The notes: generated from the letters alone by a model not told the origin. A stretch of DNA of 44,052 nt from Burkholderiales bacterium (GCA_026400155.1 JAPLPO010000024.1:1-44052); one strand, 5' to 3'; positions 4,416 through 25,197 are shown, numbered from the stretch's first letter. Numbers and translations: made by a program.

Positions 4416-5855
4416 ATGGACGCCAACCTGAATTTTGCAACGACCCCAAGCTCAAACCCCACGTCAGTAGGGGCTTCCAGCGGTTCTAAGGGTTTAGACC
4501 CGAGCCTTGCCAAGCCCATGAATGGGCAGGAATTTGCGGGTGTGATGCGTGACTTGATGGCCAAGGGGGAGCGGCAAGAGCTTGCCGGAACCGAGCCCAA
4601 GGAAGCCACCGATGCCACAACGGCAGCCCTGCAAACTCTGAATTTAGGTAGCCAGTTCTCTGTGATCACAGCGGCCTCGCCGCTGCCCGATCCCAACAGC
4701 CTGGCCCAATTTGCCCGAGCTCAAGGTTTGAGCGAGTCGGCAGTCCAGGCCTTGTTTGGAGACTTGACAATGGGGATGAGTCAGCCTGCTAGCCCTGTTG
4801 CAGTCTGCGCCAGTGTCAGTGCCAGCACCCTCACGCTGTTGCCAAGCGCACCCACATTAGGTTGGATCCAAGCAACTCCAAGCAGTTTGACAATTTCAGC
4901 TCAGGTCGAAAGTTCCGTATTGGCGCCAGCAACTCAGCTTACAACACAAGGCGCCATCAAAACTTCCGATGTATCCGCCTTGCTGGCAACAGCGGGCGCC
5001 ACGGGCATTCTCAAAACAGTGGGCGACATGGGCGCAGCACCTATTCAAGCGCTGAGCACCGCAGAAACTGTGGCCGAAATGTCACCAGAGCTTGGCCCTT
5101 TGGATGCCATGCGCATGCGCATGGTGCCAGCATGGGAAAACATGACCCGACAGTTGGCCAAATTGAATGGCACCGATCAAGCTGCCGCTTGGGGGCAAAT
5201 GACCTCCAACATATTGAGTAGCAAAGTACTCGGCGCTGATGTGCCGGAGGTTTTGCTGGACTTGGGCGTCAATGACCCCGCACTCTTGTCAACATTTGAC
5301 ACCCTTCAAGACCCCAGCAGTGGGAGCACCATCAGCCTTGATTCAGCACGCAACACCGCCAGCACCGGAACTTTGGGCGCCGCCGCCACCAGTGCAGCCT
5401 TGGCCAACCCCGGGTTGACCGACAGAGCGGCCCAAATTCAGGACTTGGCCGACAAACTGGGCAAAGCCATGGGCGAGCGACTCCAAGAACAATTGGAACG
5501 CGGGGAATGGAAACTGCAATTGAAGCTGAATCCCGCCCATTTGGGCAAAATTGATGTTGAGCTTGACATGAGTACGAAGGGTTTGGACGCCATTTTCAAG
5601 ACTGACAACCAACTCACGCGAGAATTGATTGCACAAGGAATGAACAAACTCAAGGATAGCTTGGCACAATCAGGCATGACAGTTGCTAATGTCTGGGTGA
5701 ACAGTGAAAACCAGCGTGGATCTGGCGGAAACTCGACACCTCGTCAAAACTCGGAATCTGACAACCATGTCAGTGCCCCTGTGTCGGATGTCAAAGCCGC
5801 TGAATCTCGCATCAAAGAGCTTAGATCTTCTGATGCCTGGGACGCACTGGCTTGA
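4416..5855 (+). CDS. fliK: Flagellar hook-length control protein FliK
   Basis: 479 aa; C-terminal Flg_hook-like WKLQLKLNPAHLGKIDVELDMSTKGLDAIFKTDNQLTRELI; directly before fliL. Confidence 0.88.
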   Translation: MDANLNFATTPSSNPTSVGASSGSKGLDPSLAKPMNGQEFAGVMRDLMAKGERQELAGTEPKEATDATTAALQTLNLGSQFSVITAASPLPDPNSLAQFARAQGLSESAVQALFGDLTMGMSQPASPVAVCASVSASTLTLLPSAPTLGWIQATPSSLTISAQVESSVLAPATQLTTQGAIKTSDVSALLATAGATGILKTVGDMGAAPIQALSTAETVAEMSPELGPLDAMRMRMVPAWENMTRQLAKLNGTDQAAAWGQMTSNILSSKVLGADVPEVLLDLGVNDPALLSTFDTLQDPSSGSTISLDSARNTASTGTLGAAATSAALANPGLTDRAAQIQDLADKLGKAMGERLQEQLERGEWKLQLKLNPAHLGKIDVELDMSTKGLDAIFKTDNQLTRELIAQGMNKLKDSLAQSGMTVANVWVNSENQRGSGGNSTPRQNSESDNHVSAPVSDVKAAESRIKELRSSDAWDALA

Positions 5856-10058: not shown

Positions 10059-11207
10059 ATGGCAGAAGAATCTGGCGCTGAAAAAACCGAAGACCCCACG
10101 GCCCGAAAATTACGCAACGCCCGCGAAGAGGGTCAAGTTGCGCGCTCAATCGAGCTGCCTGCCGCAGCGGTCACCATTGGCGCCATCTTGGCTTTGTTCA
10201 TGATGGGTGGCTACTGGCTCTCAAAGGTGGCCGAGCTTTTTGCATCCGGCTTTAAATTTGACCGCAAATCTTTAGACAACCCCGACCTGATGGTCACCAC
10301 CTTTGCGCATCATTTGGGTGAGAGCTTCTTGCTCATCGTGCCTGTGCTGTTGGTCACTGCTGTGTTGGCCATTTTGTCGAGTGGCGCCACGGGTGGCTAT
10401 CTCTTTTCTTTGAAAAGCCTTGCGCCCAAGTTCAGCAAACTGAGTTTGCTGTCAGGCTTTAAGCGCATGTTTGGCACACACGCCGCTGTGGAATTGTTGA
10501 AGGCCATTTTGAAATTCACATTGGTGGCTTCTGTTCTTTGGGCGCTGGTCAGCCGGCAAATGGACCAAATGTTGCAGCTCGGTCAAATGGCCGTCGAACC
10601 TGCTCTGGCTGCAGCCGCCTGGATGATTGGCGAATCGGCCTTGTGGTTGTCTTTGAGCTTATTGGTCATTGCGCTCATTGATGCGCCCTACCAAAAATAT
10701 TCTTTCATCAAGCGCATGCGCATGACCAAGCAAGAGGTCAAAGATGAAATGAAGGACATGGAAGGTAACCCAGAAATTAAGCAGCAAATTCGCAGACGCC
10801 AACGCGAAATGGCCAACAACCGAATGCTTGAAAAAGTCAAAGACGCCGACGTGGTCATTACCAACCCCGAACACTTTGCGGTGGCTCTGTCTTACGATCC
10901 CACCGGTGATGGCGCTCCTATTTTGCTGGCCAAAGGCTCTGACCACATGGCCGCCCGCATTCGCGAAGAAGCTCAAAAGCACGGCGTCGAAATGTTTGCA
11001 GCCCCGCCACTGGCACGTGCGCTTTACTTCAAAACCGAGTTAGACCAACCTGTGCCCGAGGCCTTGTATTTGGCCGTTGCGCAAGTCATTGCCTACGTCT
11101 TTAGCCTGGCTGACGTCAGGCCAGGCGTACCACCCATGGCTAAACCCACCCCCAAAGTCCCTGCCTCCATGCAATTTAATGCAGACGGTAGATTGATGAC
11201 GTCTTAA
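10059..11207 (+). CDS. flhB: Flagellar export switch protein FlhB (cleavage site NPEH)
   Basis: 382 aa; GAEKTEDPTARKLRNAREEGQVARS start and DADVVITNPEHFAVALSYDP cytoplasmic domain. Confidence 0.96.
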   Translation: MAEESGAEKTEDPTARKLRNAREEGQVARSIELPAAAVTIGAILALFMMGGYWLSKVAELFASGFKFDRKSLDNPDLMVTTFAHHLGESFLLIVPVLLVTAVLAILSSGATGGYLFSLKSLAPKFSKLSLLSGFKRMFGTHAAVELLKAILKFTLVASVLWALVSRQMDQMLQLGQMAVEPALAAAAWMIGESALWLSLSLLVIALIDAPYQKYSFIKRMRMTKQEVKDEMKDMEGNPEIKQQIRRRQREMANNRMLEKVKDADVVITNPEHFAVALSYDPTGDGAPILLAKGSDHMAARIREEAQKHGVEMFAAPPLARALYFKTELDQPVPEALYLAVAQVIAYVFSLADVRPGVPPMAKPTPKVPASMQFNADGRLMTS

Positions 11208-12672: not shown

Positions 12673-13863
12673 TTAGCCCACGTCTTTTTCGAGGTCGTTG
12701 GTGGCAACAGGCAGAGTGCCCTGGCGCAAGTCGTACTTGTTGAGCTTTTCAATCAAGGTGGTGCGCTGCAAATTAAGCAGCCGCGCCGTTTGCGAGACAT
12801 TGCCGTCTGTGCGATTCAAAGCTTGCACAATGAGGTCTCTCTCAATATCGGCCAAGCGGTCTTTCAAGGACAGGCCCTCTGGCGGCAAGCTGGGCAAACC
12901 TTGCGCCAGCATGATGATGTCCTCCACTTCATTGTGCAGGTCCATTGTCAAAGGTGGCGCAGGATTGGCAAAGGGGTTCATCACCTCAGCATTGGCACTT
13001 TGAAGCATGTCTTTGGCACTCAGAGGCGCCACAATTTCGAGGGAATCCGCAATGGGTGTGCTCACGCGCTGGGCCTGCAGCGTGCGCAAACCCTTGGGCA
13101 ACAAGGATGAGGGCACCGTAGCCAAACTCAAAAGTTGGCCACTGAACAGCGTGTTAAAGCGGTCAACCAAGTTGGATAATTCCCGCACATTGCCTGGCCA
13201 CGCATAATCTTTCAGTGCGTCTATAAAGTCTGCAGTGAATGAAATAGGCGTCTGACCTTTGACCGCAAAATGCTCTGCAAAATGGACCAGCAAGGCAGGC
13301 ACATCTTGTGTTCTTTGGCGCAATGCGGGCGTGTTCAAAGGCAGCACATTGAGACGGTAATACAAGTCTTCTCTAAATCGACCCGCTTCTATTTCCGCTT
13401 CCAAATCTCGGTGCGTGGCGGCCACCACCCGCACATCCACCTCTACCGATTTCAAGCCGCCCACAGGATCGACGGTTCGCTCTTGCAACACACGCAAAAG
13501 CTTGACCTGCATATCGAGCGACAAGTCACCAATTTCGTCCAAGAAGATGGTGCCGCCATGGGCCAACTCAAACCGGCCAATTCGATCGGCCATGGCGCCC
13601 GTGAAGGCGCCCTTGCGATGGCCAAACAGCTCACTCTCCAACAAGTCTTTGGGAATGGCCGCACAATTGATGGGGACAAAATTTCCGCCACTTCGGTCGG
13701 ATTGATCGTGCAAGGCCCTGGCCACCAACTCCTTGCCCGTGCCACTTTCACCGGTAATTAAAACCGTGGCGGTGGATGACGCTACGCGTTCAATGAGGTG
13801 GCGGATGGCTTCAGCGCCTGCACTGGCGCCAATAAAGGCTTTGGAAGGACTCTTTTTAGCCAT
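12673..13863 (-). CDS. sigma54-dependent activator (FleQ/FlrA-like) without N-terminal receiver domain
   Basis: GESGTGKE Walker A, GAFTGA sigma54-contact loop, [24 protein letters not shown] Walker B, C-terminal Fis-type HTH ([27 protein letters not shown]). ORF track start 13878; MAKKSPSK at 13863 preferred. Confidence 0.88.
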
Positions 13864-13993
13864 GGGCGATGGTTGCAATGATCATGAATTGTCTCAAGAC
13901 AGCACTGTATTGCAATTTTGGTGAAAAATGTCTTAAATGTCGGAAAACCGTCAAGGTGCTTCTCCTTTTCACAACAAGCGGCATCGAAAGCTC

Positions 13994-14020
13994 TCAAGCT
14001 TCTAGAGTTGATGCCGAATC
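13994..14020 (+). promoter_or_regulatory. sigma28 (FliA) promoter for flgP-like operon
   Basis: TCAAGCTT-N11-GCCGAATC; lies inside the ORF-track reading frame 13918.., supporting a downstream start for flgP. Confidence 0.7.
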
Positions 14021-14064
14021 AGAGGGTGAAGGACTTCAAGTCCTCCTCTAACAAGGAACTGAAC

Positions 14065-14544
14065 ATGAAACGCATGACCTCACTCTGCTTGGTATTTGGC
14101 TTGGTGGCCCTGACAGGCTGTAAATCTGTCGATTTGGCAATGTTGTCGTCCAACACCAAAGACCAAAACACCATCGTCTCACCGTTGATTGAAAAACGGG
14201 AAACCATCACCGCCACAGGCTATGCGGTGGTTGCTGTGCAAAACCACAGAAACCCGGCGCAGCAGCGTTTGATGGCCATCAGGGCCTCCAAACTCGATGC
14301 CTACCGCAACTTGACCGAGCAGGTCTATGGTCAGCAACTAGATTCCAGCTCTACCGTGGCCGACATGGTGGTGACCAACGATACCTTTCGCACCAAAGTC
14401 GAAGGTGTGATTTATGGCGCTCGTTTGGTCAGCATCACACCCGTGGGCGAAGACACTTACGAAACCACTTTGTCGCTCGACAAAGACGTGGTGCAAGATT
14501 TGCGCATTTTGTTCATGGGTCAGATGGTTTCCAAAGGCCGCTGA
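14065..14544 (+). CDS. flgP: Outer-membrane lipoprotein, LPP20/FlgP-like
   Basis: Start re-assigned to ATG 14065: MKRMTSLCLVFGLVALTGC lipobox; QQRLMAIRASKLDAYRNLTEQVYGQQL...VEGVIYGARLVSITPVGEDTYETTLSL is the LPP20/FlgP pattern. Confidence 0.78.
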   Translation: MKRMTSLCLVFGLVALTGCKSVDLAMLSSNTKDQNTIVSPLIEKRETITATGYAVVAVQNHRNPAQQRLMAIRASKLDAYRNLTEQVYGQQLDSSSTVADMVVTNDTFRTKVEGVIYGARLVSITPVGEDTYETTLSLDKDVVQDLRILFMGQMVSKGR

Positions 14545-14546
14545 TC

Positions 14547-15977
14547 ATGCGCTCGGGTTACAAACTCCTTCACGTGAATGCTTTGTGCCTGGCGCTGAGC
14601 GTCGGCATGAGCGTGCAGGTTGCAGCCCAAAGCACGGCGCAAGCGCCCAGCAAAAAGGTGCCGACTGGTGCCATTGCACCTCAAGCGCCTCTCACGCCAC
14701 AAGAGCGCCTGGATGCCATTCGACAAAGTTTGGTGGAAACTTCATTGCAAACTCCCACCCGCGTCTCCACCACAAGCTGGGTGGACTCGCAGGGCAGTTT
14801 GCGTGAAAACAGCAGTTTCAAAAATGGCATGGAAGTTCGAGGCGTCAAGGTCCTGAGATTTGAGCGCGATGAAAACGGCCAAGCCAAGGCCACATTGCAA
14901 TATCCCAGCAACCCAGACGACCCGCCTGCAACACCCAAGCCCAGTGCATCTGATGCTTCTGAGAATAGCGTTCAAGTTGCTGCTCAAAAGCTGCGCGACA
15001 TGGTGACCCAGCTCTGGAGTCCAAGTCAAAACGCAAAGTCCGAAGCAACATCGGCTCTCAAGGTGGCTGCCTGTACGCCACAAGTTGGCGCTCGCATGAA
15101 CCATGTCATTGGCTTGGAGGTTCAAATCGACCCTCTTGCACCTCACTCTTTGTTGCAAACATTGGTGCCCCAGATTCAGGCGCAGTGGGTTCAATCGAAT
15201 ACCCAAAATGGCAAAACCAATGCGTGGCGTGCTGTCAACACCATGACTGACGCGTCCATGGCCAACAGCATGACCGCCTACGAACGGGCGCTGGTGGGCA
15301 ATCGGCCAGAAACACTGCCTTGGCACGCCATTTTGAAAGTGCAGACAGAATCTTTGCCACCCACACCAGTAGAGGCTTATTTAGGCGCCGCCCATCCCTA
15401 CTTCATCATGAAACTGGCTTTTCAATTGGTGAACACCGAAGGTCAGCCTGCTCAGATGGAAGAGGAAGTCACCCTCCAGTTAGCGATAGAGCGCTCATCT
15501 TGGTCGGCGCCCAAGTTAACCGCAGCCAGCGTCTTGAGCATCCAAAAACAACTTCAAAATTGGCGCAATACGGCCCATGATTGGCTCAATTGCCAACCCC
15601 TGAACCCAATAGTCACAGCCGTCAGTGGTCAACAAATTGAAATCAATGCGGGTGCTCTGTCTGGCGTGCGCAAAGGCGATGAATGGCTGATTGCCAATCC
15701 CGCGCAGTTTCCAGCCCAGCTCATCAGCAGAGAGGGCGCGCCGGAAACTTTGTTGGCCATGGTGCAATCGGTTTCACCGCATGGGTCCAAACTCATGGTG
15801 GTGGCTGGCCCAGCACAAGCTGCCCAAACAAACTGGCGCGCCTGGCCCACAGACACCTTGGTGAAAGAGCCCTCTGTGTTGCCTAGCAAGCCACCTGCCA
15901 GTGCAAACAAACAACCTGTCAAAGTCAATGCACGGCCCAACGCTAACGCTCAGGCCAACGCCTCTTTGACACCTTAA
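14547..15977 (+). CDS. FlgT-like flagellar assembly protein
   Basis: 476 aa secreted protein directly after flgP; C-terminal motif EINAGALSGVRKGDEWLI is FlgT C-terminal-domain-like; long low-complexity C-tail. Confidence 0.6.
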   Translation: MRSGYKLLHVNALCLALSVGMSVQVAAQSTAQAPSKKVPTGAIAPQAPLTPQERLDAIRQSLVETSLQTPTRVSTTSWVDSQGSLRENSSFKNGMEVRGVKVLRFERDENGQAKATLQYPSNPDDPPATPKPSASDASENSVQVAAQKLRDMVTQLWSPSQNAKSEATSALKVAACTPQVGARMNHVIGLEVQIDPLAPHSLLQTLVPQIQAQWVQSNTQNGKTNAWRAVNTMTDASMANSMTAYERALVGNRPETLPWHAILKVQTESLPPTPVEAYLGAAHPYFIMKLAFQLVNTEGQPAQMEEEVTLQLAIERSSWSAPKLTAASVLSIQKQLQNWRNTAHDWLNCQPLNPIVTAVSGQQIEINAGALSGVRKGDEWLIANPAQFPAQLISREGAPETLLAMVQSVSPHGSKLMVVAGPAQAAQTNWRAWPTDTLVKEPSVLPSKPPASANKQPVKVNARPNANAQANASLTP

Positions 15978-15996
15978 TGATTGAATTGAGTTTGAC

Positions 15997-16437
15997 ATGA
16001 ACACTTCATCACGCCTTGAATTTAAAAACAGCATCACAGCCTTCTCTTGGCTGCTCTTGGCTGCCATGTCATGTTTCATGGCCACGCCCAGCCGCGCAGC
16101 CGACAAAAGTGCAGACACAACAGAGCTGGTGGCTGTGGCTCAGGTCACTCTGGACCAGAGCATGGCTGTGGACAAACTGGTGCAAAAGTTTTATCCCAAC
16201 AGCCCCATCGCTACCAGCGTGTTGCGCAAAGTCTTGCAAGATGCCAATCCCAAAATCATTTCTGGCAACCCTCAGCAGCGTGTCAAAGCAGGTACCACGC
16301 TGGCTGTTCCCGACCATGGCCACATTGCCGTCGCGGTTTTGACCCCCTTTGCGGCAGCTCATACTGCTAAAGATCCAGACCCCGGCCCCTCAGCTCGCGA
16401 CGCTTCAGTTCGCAAGCCTTGGGTCCGGTTCCCATGA
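15997..16437 (+). CDS. Small secreted FimV/LysM-like protein
   Basis: 146 aa; signal peptide ending ATPSRA; DKLVQKFYPNSPIATSVLRKVLQDANPKIISGNPQQRVKAGTTLAVPDHGHI resembles the FimV N-terminal LysM-like domain. Confidence 0.6.
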   Translation: MNTSSRLEFKNSITAFSWLLLAAMSCFMATPSRAADKSADTTELVAVAQVTLDQSMAVDKLVQKFYPNSPIATSVLRKVLQDANPKIISGNPQQRVKAGTTLAVPDHGHIAVAVLTPFAAAHTAKDPDPGPSARDASVRKPWVRFP

Positions 16438-17471
16438 TTTCGGTGGCCGACGCACTTGCTGCGCCCGGCCGAATCCCCACCATTTATCTGGAAGGCAAGT
16501 TGCTGCCTTTGCAGGCCAGCACAGCCGCAGAGTTGGGCTTGAAAGACGGGCAAGTGGTTCAGGCTTCCATCAGGCTACAACAAGACCAACCCATGCTCAT
16601 GTTGCAAGGCAAAGCCTTGCCTGCGCCGGGCCTCTTGGCAACCCAAGTGGGAGAGTCCATTTGGTTGCGCGCCCAAGGTGGCAACTTGGTGCCCATCAAC
16701 GCACCGCCCCTTGTGTCGCGCATTGCCAACTTGCTTTACAGGCCCAATGTCAATTCAGTGTTGCCGCAACTTTTTCAGCCAGGCACGCTAGATCAGTTGT
16801 TAAGCCAAGTTCAGCGCCCCGACTTGCAAGCGCAATGGCGAGGCCTGCAACTTTCCATGTCGCAACTCACGCCAGGTACTTTGCAGCAAGCCATGATGGG
16901 CGCCATGGGCGCTGAGGTTTGGATGGCCAGAGGATTGCAACCACCCCAAGACGTCAAGCAATTAATGCGCAAGCTCATTGCCGAGTTGAGTATGGCGCGG
17001 ACCGATGAAGAGCCAGACACAGGCCTTATTGAAAAGCTCACCCGCGCTGTTGACGACGTTGAAGCCCGTCAAGTCCAAGCTGTGCAAGCGCAAGCACAAC
17101 AAGAAGTTTTGTTCAGCATGACCTTGCCCTTTGTGGATGCCAACCCCATTGAACTCACCGTTCGACGCGGCCCGCGCCAAGATGGCGAACAAGCGGTGCT
17201 CACGGTCAATGTGCATTCCAAAACAGAAGACTTGGGTCCTGTTTGGTTAAAGACCCAACTCATGAATGCCCAGCAACTAGAGCTCACCATGTGGGCTGAG
17301 AACGAGTTTGTGGTTGGGCAAGCCCGCTCTAGGTCTTACCTGCTTGGCGATGAATTGCGCGCTGCAGGCCTCAACATGCGCGCCTTCAACGTTGTGCATG
17401 GCGCACGGCCCCCAGAAGCCAGTGACTGGACGCCCTCGGGTCGGGGCCTGGTGGTGGATGTTTCAGCATGA
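16434..17471 (+). CDS. Second FliK-like protein (Flg_hook C-terminal domain-like)
   Basis: ATGA overlap with preceding stop supports start at 16434 (MISVADALAAPG); C-terminus LGPVWLKTQLMNAQQLELTMWAENEFVVGQARSRSYLLGDELRAAGLNMRAFNVVHG; followed by an FlhB-C-like gene. Confidence 0.6.
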   Translation: MISVADALAAPGRIPTIYLEGKLLPLQASTAAELGLKDGQVVQASIRLQQDQPMLMLQGKALPAPGLLATQVGESIWLRAQGGNLVPINAPPLVSRIANLLYRPNVNSVLPQLFQPGTLDQLLSQVQRPDLQAQWRGLQLSMSQLTPGTLQQAMMGAMGAEVWMARGLQPPQDVKQLMRKLIAELSMARTDEEPDTGLIEKLTRAVDDVEARQVQAVQAQAQQEVLFSMTLPFVDANPIELTVRRGPRQDGEQAVLTVNVHSKTEDLGPVWLKTQLMNAQQLELTMWAENEFVVGQARSRSYLLGDELRAAGLNMRAFNVVHGARPPEASDWTPSGRGLVVDVSA

Positions 17472-17821
17472 GCCGCTACATGCGTCAAGCCGTGGCACTG
17501 GCCTATGGCAAGAACCCCGTGCCCGTGGTTACCGCCAAGGGCGACGACGATTTGGCCATGCGCATGATCGAAGAAGCGCGCCAACAAGGCGTGTTCATTT
17601 CCGAAGACCCCCAGCTGCTGGCATTGCTCAGTCGCTTGAATGTCGATGAAGAAATTCCGCAAGAGCTTTACACCGCAGTGGCGGTTGTCTTGTCTTGGGT
17701 GTATTGGCTTAAGGGCATGCGCCCAGGCGATGAAAAAACAAGCTCAGATCCTGTAGATCCCACACAAGCTGTGAATCCTGCAGATTCAAACCCCTCACCA
17801 GCAAATTCGGTGAGCGACTGA
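17468..17821 (+). CDS. Stand-alone FlhB cytoplasmic-domain-like protein (FhlB/FlhX/YlqH type)
   Basis: 117 aa; RQAVALAYGKNPVPVVTAKGDDDLAMRMIEEARQQGVFISEDPQLLALLSRLNVDEEIPQELYTAVAVVLSWVYWLKG matches the segment of FlhB after the NPxH cleavage site. Confidence 0.85.
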   Translation: MSRYMRQAVALAYGKNPVPVVTAKGDDDLAMRMIEEARQQGVFISEDPQLLALLSRLNVDEEIPQELYTAVAVVLSWVYWLKGMRPGDEKTSSDPVDPTQAVNPADSNPSPANSVSD

Positions 17822-17824
17822 CAC

Positions 17825-18205
17825 TCAAACTTCTTGGTATCCTCGGCCCTTGCTGAAACGGGCCACTTGGCCTAAGCGGTCATAAACTTCAACGGGGCTG
17901 CCAGATTCGCCCACTTGCAAGCTGTGCAAGGCACCGCGAATGGTGTCTAGTTTGCGTTCGATGAGCACAGCGTTGCGTCTGTGCATGTCGCGGCATTGAA
18001 TGAGCGATTCACGCAGGGCATCCCACTCGGGGAGATTTTGGAGGTCTTCGGGCGAGGGGCAAAGTGCAGAAAGCTCGCTCAAAAGATCATTTTTGCCGGG
18101 CTGCAAAGACTCAAACCGGTCCAGATCTTGGCTCTTGAGAGATTCAAACTCCAAAGCCAACAGCTGGACCAGCTGGTCGGATACAGTAAGTGCACGCTCA
18201 CTCAC
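17825..18205 (-). CDS. flgN: FlgN-type hook-filament junction chaperone
   Basis: 126 aa helical protein, 8-nt overlap with flgM, in flgA-flgM-flgN order. Confidence 0.75.
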   Translation of the reverse strand: MSERALTVSDQLVQLLALEFESLKSQDLDRFESLQPGKNDLLSELSALCPSPEDLQNLPEWDALRESLIQCRDMHRRNAVLIERKLDTIRGALHSLQVGESGSPVEVYDRLGQVARFSKGRGYQEV

Positions 18206-18521
18206 GAATCATTTGCTCAATGGCATGGAAGCTTTCAGCAATTTTGCGTGGGTTCAATGGATATTGACCATCTTGAATTGCTTGCTTAATAGACTCCACC
18301 TTCACGCGATCAAAGTCGGGCTCGGCCATGGCACGTGCGGCGACATTGCTTAAATGCAATTGATCAGCGCCGGGCGCTTTGGCAGTGGTTGCAGCAGGCG
18401 CTGACGAATCGAGTGCCACACTGTCTTTCGAGCTGCTTTTGCGGTTGGCTTTGTCCAATGCGCTGCGCAACGACGCGTCCGATTGGGCGCGCTGTCCATA
18501 GTTTGAAATTGCATCGGTCAT
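18198..18521 (-). CDS. flgM: Anti-sigma28 factor FlgM
   Basis: 107 aa; C-terminal DFDRVKVESIKQAIQDGQYPLNPRKIAESFHAIEQMI. Confidence 0.9.
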   Translation of the reverse strand: MTDAISNYGQRAQSDASLRSALDKANRKSSSKDSVALDSSAPAATTAKAPGADQLHLSNVAARAMAEPDFDRVKVESIKQAIQDGQYPLNPRKIAESFHAIEQMIRE

Positions 18522-18583: not shown

Positions 18584-18610
18584 GTATCGGCAGTAGATTC
18601 TAGAACTTGA
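18584..18610 (-). promoter_or_regulatory. sigma28 promoter for flgM-flgN
   Basis: Reverse strand TCAAGTTC-N11-GCCGATAC, 63 nt upstream of flgM. Confidence 0.8.
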
Positions 18611-22692: not shown

Positions 22693-25197
22693 ATGTCTTT
22701 CTATACCTCGCTGACCGGATTGAATGCTGCCACCGCCATGTTGGGCGTGACCAGTAACAACATTTCCAATGTGGGCACCACCGGTTTCAAGCGTTCACGC
22801 GCCGACTTCGGTGACATTTTTGCGACCTCACCTTTGCAAAAAGCTTCTTCCACAGTGGGTCAGGGTGTGTCTCTGAAACAAGTGTCTCAGGAGTTCTCCC
22901 AAGGTAATATTTCTTTCTCGTCCAACGCGCTTGACCTGGCCGTAACCGGTGACGGTTTTTTCCCCATGCGCTCGGCCGACGGCTTGCAAGAACTGTTTAC
23001 ACGAAATGGTTCGTTCTTGTTGAACGAGCAATTTAACGTGGTGAACTCTTCAGGCCAGCGTTTGATGGCAGCCACAGTTGACTCGACAGGTTCTGCGAAC
23101 ATCAACGAACGCGTGGTGCTGACAATTCCGCAAAAAACATCGGGCGATGCCAAACAAACATCCTTGGTGTCTTTGGGCTTGAACTTCCCAGCCGATGCGG
23201 AAGTGATTACCGAGCCCTTCAACCGCTCCAACCCTGCCACGTACAACAAGTCAACCGCGTTTACCGTGTACGACAACGGGGGCAACGGTTATTTGGCCAC
23301 CATTTATTACACCAAAACATCGAACGCCAATCAAAATGTGCCATTCAACAAATGGCAAACCAACGTGTTTGTGGGTGAAGACCAAGTGGCAGCGTCATTG
23401 GTGCAGGCCACCGATGCCAACAACGAAAGAATCTATGTGAACCAATACGGTCAAACCAAGCCCTACAGCGAAGTGAAGGACGAATTGACCACTGCCAAAA
23501 CACAATTGTTTTCTTTGGATGAATTGACCAACAAGAAGATATCTATCGCAGCCACCGCCACTGGTAACATCGTGCCAGAAACCGGCGCCAGCAGCTACGA
23601 CTGGGTGGCAGGCTTGCCCAATGGCGACCCCAAACTGGCAGGCCTTTTGACCGACAACGCCTTCACAGTAGACGTCGACAACAGCGGATCACCCGTGACT
23701 GTGAATTTGGCCAAGTTGGCTGCATTGCCAGTCGGTACACGTATTACAGGCGACCTCATTGCCCAAGAAGCCACCAACCAATTGATCAGCAAGTTTGGTG
23801 TTTCGCGAGGCACTACCACCACCAGCACAACAGCGACAGCCACTGGCGCTACAACTGCAAGTTCTGTGACAGCTACTGTCGGTAGCGTCACAACCACTGT
23901 GGTTACAACTGCAGGCACCATTGCTGCCCCAGGTACGATCACAACCACCGTGACCAAGCCAGCAATGAATGAACGTTATGGCATGAAGGTTGGCTTTGAT
24001 GCAGTGAACAAACAGTTCTTTTTAGAATCTGGCACCACCGGCGACACCTCCAGCGTTGCACTTTCAGCAGTGAGCACTGCCGCAGCCACGGCCATGGGCC
24101 TTAAAGCTCAAATCGTTTCGCCAGAGGCAGTTGCCACACGTGGTATTCCTTCTAAATCTGCAGTCACTTTTGGTATTACACCCACTGTGAATACAGCCAC
24201 CAACTTCAGCGTAGACGCTACCAACAACAAATTCATTGTGACCGTCGATGGCATTAAGTCGACAGTTACCTTGGCAGTTCGTGAATACTCTTTGGCTGAG
24301 TTCACGCAAGCTTTGGAAAATGAAATCAATGCCATGAAAGAAGTGCGAACCGATGGTCTCACACCCAAAGAAATCAGTGGTGTGAAGGTTGAATTTGACA
24401 ACACGAAAAGGGCTTTCAAATTTACCAGCGGTACATCGGGTGCTGATTCTTTCATCAAAATTTCGGGCGAGCCTATTTGGGGTTTGTCCACAGTTGAAGC
24501 AGGTCGTGGCGAAACGTCCACATGGATTCTGCCCACGCAGCGCGTTGACGTAGTCAATGGCACACCGCAGCCCAAGTACATCGATGCCCAAGGCAATGAA
24601 ACCACCAGCACTGATGGCTATGTGGGCTTGCCAGCTTGGTCACCTGTGTACTTAGACAAAGGTGAGCTGACTTTTGACACCGGCGGAAACTTGGTCTCGC
24701 CGATCGAAGGTACTCAGTTGGAAACTGTGTACTTGGCGGGTGGTAAAGGTGCTTTGAGAATTAACATCGATTACTCAGCTTCCACACAATTCTCATCTGC
24801 GTTTGCCGTGTTGTCACAGTCCCAAGATGGCGCCCCAGAAGGCGACTTGGTGGGTGTGACCATCGGTAACGACGGCTTGGTGAGTGCTTCATTCTCCAAC
24901 GGTTCTCAAAAATCTTTGGCAAAAATTTTGCTGGCCAACTTCTCAAGCCCAGTGGGTTTGCGTCAGATTGGTGACTCCAGTTTCTTGGCTTCTGCAGCCT
25001 CTGGCAGGCCTATTTTGGGCACGCCAGGCTCTGCCGGTTTCGGTACCTTGCGAGCCGGTGCCACAGAACGAGCCAACGTGGACTTGACACAAGAATTGGT
25101 GGACTTGATTACTGCACAGCGTAACTTCCAGGCCAACGCCAAAGCCATTGAGACGTCCAGCACCATGACGTCGGCCATTATCAACTTGCGCTCTTAA
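22693..25197 (+). CDS. flgE: Hook protein FlgE (enlarged)
   Basis: 834 aa; N-term SLTGLNAATAMLGVTSNNISNVGTTGFKRSRADFGD, C-term ELVDLITAQRNFQANAKAIETSSTM. Confidence 0.95.
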   Translation: MSFYTSLTGLNAATAMLGVTSNNISNVGTTGFKRSRADFGDIFATSPLQKASSTVGQGVSLKQVSQEFSQGNISFSSNALDLAVTGDGFFPMRSADGLQELFTRNGSFLLNEQFNVVNSSGQRLMAATVDSTGSANINERVVLTIPQKTSGDAKQTSLVSLGLNFPADAEVITEPFNRSNPATYNKSTAFTVYDNGGNGYLATIYYTKTSNANQNVPFNKWQTNVFVGEDQVAASLVQATDANNERIYVNQYGQTKPYSEVKDELTTAKTQLFSLDELTNKKISIAATATGNIVPETGASSYDWVAGLPNGDPKLAGLLTDNAFTVDVDNSGSPVTVNLAKLAALPVGTRITGDLIAQEATNQLISKFGVSRGTTTTSTTATATGATTASSVTATVGSVTTTVVTTAGTIAAPGTITTTVTKPAMNERYGMKVGFDAVNKQFFLESGTTGDTSSVALSAVSTAAATAMGLKAQIVSPEAVATRGIPSKSAVTFGITPTVNTATNFSVDATNNKFIVTVDGIKSTVTLAVREYSLAEFTQALENEINAMKEVRTDGLTPKEISGVKVEFDNTKRAFKFTSGTSGADSFIKISGEPIWGLSTVEAGRGETSTWILPTQRVDVVNGTPQPKYIDAQGNETTSTDGYVGLPAWSPVYLDKGELTFDTGGNLVSPIEGTQLETVYLAGGKGALRINIDYSASTQFSSAFAVLSQSQDGAPEGDLVGVTIGNDGLVSASFSNGSQKSLAKILLANFSSPVGLRQIGDSSFLASAASGRPILGTPGSAGFGTLRAGATERANVDLTQELVDLITAQRNFQANAKAIETSSTMTSAIINLRS

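Follow-up and report, generated by a model that had tools for sequence, protein, structure and literature searches.

A putative late flagellar operon joining outer-ring genes to a FliK paralogue and a stand-alone FlhB C-terminal domain in a relative of Limnohabitans

Stand-alone copies of the C-terminal domain of FlhB are common, and their role is unsettled. What might such a detached piece be doing when its gene overlaps that of a second FliK-type protein, directly behind genes for the outer rings of the flagellum? The question bears on whether the flagellar export switch is truly irreversible. The locus that raises it lies in a stretch of 44,052 nucleotides (here termed the window), part of a 76-kb contig from an incomplete metagenome-type assembly (81% complete), the nearest named relatives of which are Limnohabitans. 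Freshwater bacteria of this type are a good place to test the role of the detached FlhB piece, since FlhX there has a fixed link to a late-controlled FliK paralogue that lacks a ruler, and its role is thereby open to direct testing. An earlier note on this DNA had described five tightly spaced genes behind a sigma28-like promoter, and had suggested that completion of the outer rings could be coupled to a second switch in export specificity. The features on which the analysis draws are as follows.

4416..5855, plus strand: fliK1, the system's conventional FliK (Flg_hook, E 5.9e-18)
10059..11207, plus strand: the system's full-length flhB, with NPEH as its cleavage motif (Pfam match and motif)
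12673..13878, minus strand: sigma54 activator of FleQ/FlrA type, divergent upstream (Pfam Sigma54_activat, E 8.8e-73; conserved upstream of flgP in relatives)
13994..14020, plus strand: sigma28-type promoter TCAAGCTT-N11-GCCGAATC (consensus match with exact spacing; core conserved)
14065..14544, plus strand: flgP, LPP20 lipoprotein with lipobox LTGC (Pfam LPP20, E 4.9e-9; ~60% identity in relatives)
14547..15977, plus strand: flgT-like periplasmic ring protein (profile against Vibrio FlgT structures; AF2 model match)
15997..16437, plus strand: small exported LysM/FimV-like protein with C-terminus [RK][RK]xW[VI]x[FY]P (alignment of 47 relatives; C-termini of ~70 loci)
16434..17471, plus strand: fliK2 (Flg_hook in family members; AF2 model; PDB matches; tail)
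17468..17821, plus strand: flhX, stand-alone FlhB C-terminal domain (Bac_export_2, flhB_rel, tree, pocket residues)
17825..18205, minus strand: flgN, convergent neighbour (Pfam FlgN, E 2.5e-11)
18198..18521, minus strand: flgM, anti-sigma28 (Pfam FlgM, E 1.6e-10; sigma28-like site starting at 18610, minus strand)

The five genes from flgP to flhX are confirmed, as judged from their layout, as one tight putative operon. The flgP gene ends in TGA and is followed after 2 nt by the start of flgT, a gap of 19 nt separates flgT from the FimV-like gene, and the start codons of fliK2 (16434) and flhX (17468) each lie inside an ATGA overlap with the preceding gene; the overlap of 4 nt between fliK2 and flhX recurs in 65 of 79 related loci. 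A scan with window-type FlhX returned 303 relatives, for which 80 loci were retained, and in all 57 loci with at least 4.2 kb of upstream sequence the five genes were present in the same order. These loci had been selected via FlhX, and therefore the converse test, from flgP to flhX, matters. Among 37 same-genus genomes (the window's own included), window-type flhX was found in 30 of the 31 that carry flgP, the sole exception being a fragmentary assembly (G677, 66% complete), and in none of the six that lack flgP; five of those six gave no FlhB-type match in this search and the sixth has full-length FlhB only. In a sample of 151 genomes from the family, window-type flhX accompanies flgP in five of six cases, and in the sixth (G038) the contig stops 678 nt after flgP, which makes the missing flhX uninformative. 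Two loci with the record titles Singulisphaera and Akkermansia (L058 and L095) carry a Comamonadaceae-type operon, and these bins are probably mislabelled.

Downstream of flhX, a convergent flgN-flgM-flgA cluster was found in 67 of the 69 loci that include downstream sequence. The two convergent ends (17821 and 17825 in the window) are separated in relatives by gaps of mostly -16 to +18 nt, an arrangement in which the two late transcripts could overlap. The arrangement recalls the Vibrio-type flgO-flgP-flgT genes near flgN-flgM-flgA, and FlgP/FlgT are also encoded beside flgM-flgA in two gammaproteobacterial loci (L178 and L179); the window differs in having the small LysM-like gene, fliK2 and flhX between flgT and flgN.

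The promoter site TCAAGCTT-N11-GCCGAATC ends 44 nt 5' of the flgP start codon. Its core, T[C/A]AAG-N14-[GA][CT]CGA, was present in 56 of 58 flgP upstream regions, with 50 different spacers, against 0.09 expected from shuffles, which rules out a chance match; since the shuffles were mononucleotide shuffles and the upstream regions are related sequences, this figure demonstrates conservation and not independent events. Taken with the like site upstream of flgM, the conserved core makes it very likely that the operon is expressed late, although a sigma28 promoter is compatible with earlier expression from other promoters. In Aeromonas, in contrast, flgT is sigma54/FlrC-dependent (PMC4960245). The spacings, both overlaps, the promoter and the joint conservation of the five genes thus agree with what the earlier note had described. 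Neither of the two outcomes that the note had named as counter-evidence, a lack of joint conservation and an absence of FliK/Flg_hook homology in profile searches, was obtained.

The first three products all carry signals for export to the periplasm or outer membrane. FlgP has both the LPP20 domain and the lipobox. For the FlgT-like protein the Pfam match to FlgT_C was under the cut-off (E 0.0029), the same domain being detected in 21 of 40 family members, whilst its profile matched the Vibrio FlgT structures (E 5e-8) and its AF2 model matched FlgT of the Vibrio LPHT ring (E 6e-14) and 3w1e (E 2.4e-13); on this predicted fold it is confirmed as FlgT. The evidence for calling the small gene 'mini-FimV' is weak: the window's protein has no match among Pfam profiles, and LysM, at E up to 0.05, was found in two of the 47 members of its family, with a best E of 0.041. 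Outside its C-terminus the small protein is poorly conserved (mean column identity 26% over 47 sequences), and within the C-terminal motif the W and the terminal P are invariant in the same 47. The motif persists where the genes do not overlap and so is not a by-product of the overlap with fliK2. A strict DNA pattern for this tail failed to recover the window's own copy and is therefore uninformative on copies elsewhere.

FliK2 appears from its predicted model to resemble the switch end of FliK and not a hook ruler. Flg_hook was detected in 68 of 73 family members, the window's own protein scoring under the cut-off (E 7.1e-6, 26.2 bits against 29.8). In the AF2 model an N-terminal beta domain and a helical middle precede a C-terminal FliK/PscP switch domain, and the model's two best PDB matches were the PscP switch domain (5cuk; probability 1.00, at a weak E of 0.025) and FliK-C (2rrl; 0.99, at a weak E of 0.061); a plain sequence search of the PDB with the FliK2 profile gave no relevant match. 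FliK has been proposed to contact the C-domain of FlhB through its last five residues (PMC13344023). The window's FliK2 ends in VDVSA, where E. coli FliK has VDIFA and the window's FliK1 has WDALA; the tail is mostly hydrophobic-hydrophobic-D-hydrophobic-x-A/T/V, with D at position -4 in all 73 members. FliK2 thus has the C-terminal switch domain and D-x-x-A-type end in common with canonical FliK and PscP, but instead of their long, disordered N-terminal ruler it has a beta and helical half (most of residues ~30-335 are predicted to fold, with pLDDT largely 60-94), and on this predicted fold a hook ruler of the usual kind was rejected. A profile of this half aligns with the N-terminal region of FliK proteins linked to FlhX elsewhere (probability 75, pairwise E 2.4e-5), weakly yet above the controls (0.1-0.4). 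The D-x-x-A tail is missing from most of the distant FlhX-linked FliK proteins.

FlhX (117 aa) begins where FlhB continues just past NPxH and lacks the transmembrane part: it matches Bac_export_2 at positions 262-335 only (E 7.8e-18), and flhB_rel with E 9.2e-19, under the curated cut-off. The sequences point to a member of an old FlhX family. In a tree built from a short alignment with some long branches, and from which HP1575, FhlB and YlqH are absent, the FlhB clade received support of 100/97 and window-type FlhX fell outside it, grouped with FlhX; a local duplication of flhB is ruled out by this placement. The pocket that docks early substrates was taken as defined in PMC9307174, and Salmonella numbering was obtained by shifting the E. 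coli alignment by one position. At the pocket FlhX has V/T/A/I286, P287 (81 of 81), A/S/G341 and L344 (81 of 81), and the Thr at 286 in 22 of 81 does not belong to the residues reported as ideal (PMC9307174). The pocket thus seems to be kept, and would be compatible with replacement of the FlhB C-domain. Like H. pylori HP1575/FlhX, FhlB and YlqH, the window's FlhX is an FlhB C-domain that has no membrane part and begins directly behind NPxH; it differs in that its gene overlaps that of a FliK paralogue within an flgPT operon, and in that V, not E, follows pocket residue A341 in 81 of 81 sequences. The matches for FlgP, FlgT, FliK2 and FlhX bear out the identities given to them earlier, and the domain content (a switch domain with its D-x-x-A-type tail, and a retained pocket) supports the proposal of a second export-specificity module.

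From the gene content, gene order, promoter, domains and conserved residues we infer, tentatively, that a polar-type flagellum has here a late operon under sigma28 control, which would supply the FlgP/FlgT outer rings, the small LysM-like protein and a second, trans-acting specificity-switch cartridge; this is a real possibility, and the reading that we prefer. In Salmonella the switch flips when FliK removes the FlhB C-domain, a step that coincides with sigma28 activation, and loss of the domain blocks docking of early substrates (PMC13344023). By analogy, FliK1 would eject the cleaved C-terminal domain of FlhB at hook completion, FlgM would exit and sigma28 would become active. The operon would then be made, so that FlhX, a ready-made FlhB C-domain without the NPTH segment, would arrive once the original had gone. 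Its retained early-substrate pocket would let FlhX dock on vacated FlhB or on newly built basal bodies. FliK2, translated in overlap with flhX, would be its dedicated switch-domain partner and, with FliK's catalytic end retained, a folded N-terminal half and no long disordered ruler, would act without measuring hook length. FlhX would in this way replace or back up the ejected domain, and export specificity would be set or reset after the first switch. The ejection model, a recent one from Salmonella, may be inapplicable to the window's FlhB with its NPEH. The same NPEH autocleavage site, in place of NPTH, occurs in one further genome (G093, locus L024), whilst the other FlhB proteins listed from the family have NPTH.

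One alternative, which we consider unlikely, is that the pair is insurance, with FlhX as a redundant spare for the FlhB C-domain and FliK2 as a second, weak FliK, both needed only if the main copies fail. H. pylori HP1575, a stand-alone FlhB-C, is described in the title of a 2006 report by Wand as a 'spare part' that serves when the FlhB C-domain is deleted, and stand-alone FlhB-C, common across the phylum, is rare in the window's family, where most flagellated genomes have no flhX. Against this, the pair is conserved across many families, has invariant residues and is kept with flgP in 30 of 31 same-genus genomes, all of which argues for steady selection. It is distinctly unlikely that the switch is fully reversible here, such that FlhX refills the emptied FlhB site and restores early export, and FliK2 then removes FlhX in a ruler-free cycle. 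Quite improbable, too, is a role outside the export gate, in which a cytoplasmic FliK2-FlhX complex would sequester FliK1 or late chaperones and so tune timing or filament number: neither protein has obvious membrane segments, their overlapping translation suggests a complex and their expression is very likely late, but the docking-pocket residues of FlhX have been kept.

The coupling of FlgP/FlgT ring completion to a second export switch through the operon, as the earlier note had it, is very unlikely, despite joint sigma28 control and a linkage that is fixed in the lineage. Most of the sampled Burkholderiales families outside that of the window have flhX-like proteins without flgP, and Gammaproteobacteria have flgP/flgT without any flhX, or flhX with a fliK-like partner at a separate locus. 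Each is thus found without the other, which rules out a general FlgPT-FlhX link beyond this clade, and any tie between ring and switch would be lineage-specific. The ring proteins and the small protein are exported, moreover, and FliK2 and FlhX are without a Sec-type signal, so that contact between them would need a further link. Among 30 diverse loci a fliK-like gene lies directly upstream of flhX in about two-thirds, and 23 of 24 such proteins had a Flg_hook match; some of the loci have no fliK-like neighbour. An 'flhX-fliK' association has already been named in Nitratiruptor (PMC9321776). In the Nitratiruptor pair and in those of other Pseudomonadota a switch-domain protein likewise adjoins flhX, and the N-terminal beta domain of the FliK-like partner is similar to that of FliK2, but those pairs are unlinked to flgPT, so there is no general requirement for coupling of ring to switch. 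The literature searched yielded no experiments on the fliK-like/flhX pair. The combination that the earlier note called unexplained consists of known parts, stand-alone FlhB-C being common in the phylum and the pair already named. That the five genes have only late timing in common and are linked by descent is also very doubtful, for although all linked flgPT and fliK2-flhX cases found fall within one Burkholderiales clade and the fliK-like/flhX pair lies at other places elsewhere, the order has been kept whilst identity to the window ranges over 22-76% for FlgT and 31-94% for FliK2.

The genome of the window also contains a second flagellar gene set (L048, L049 and L050, on contigs C168 and C40) which includes an FlhB of its own and another FlhX, the latter preceded by a 343-aa ORF that matches no Pfam profile. 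Extra FlhB/FlhX copies also occur in further genomes of the genus, G659 among them, so the second set is probably not contamination. In the window itself the hook protein FlgE (22693-25197) is very large, at 834 aa, and it reaches 1222-1269 aa in two relatives (L040 and L047).
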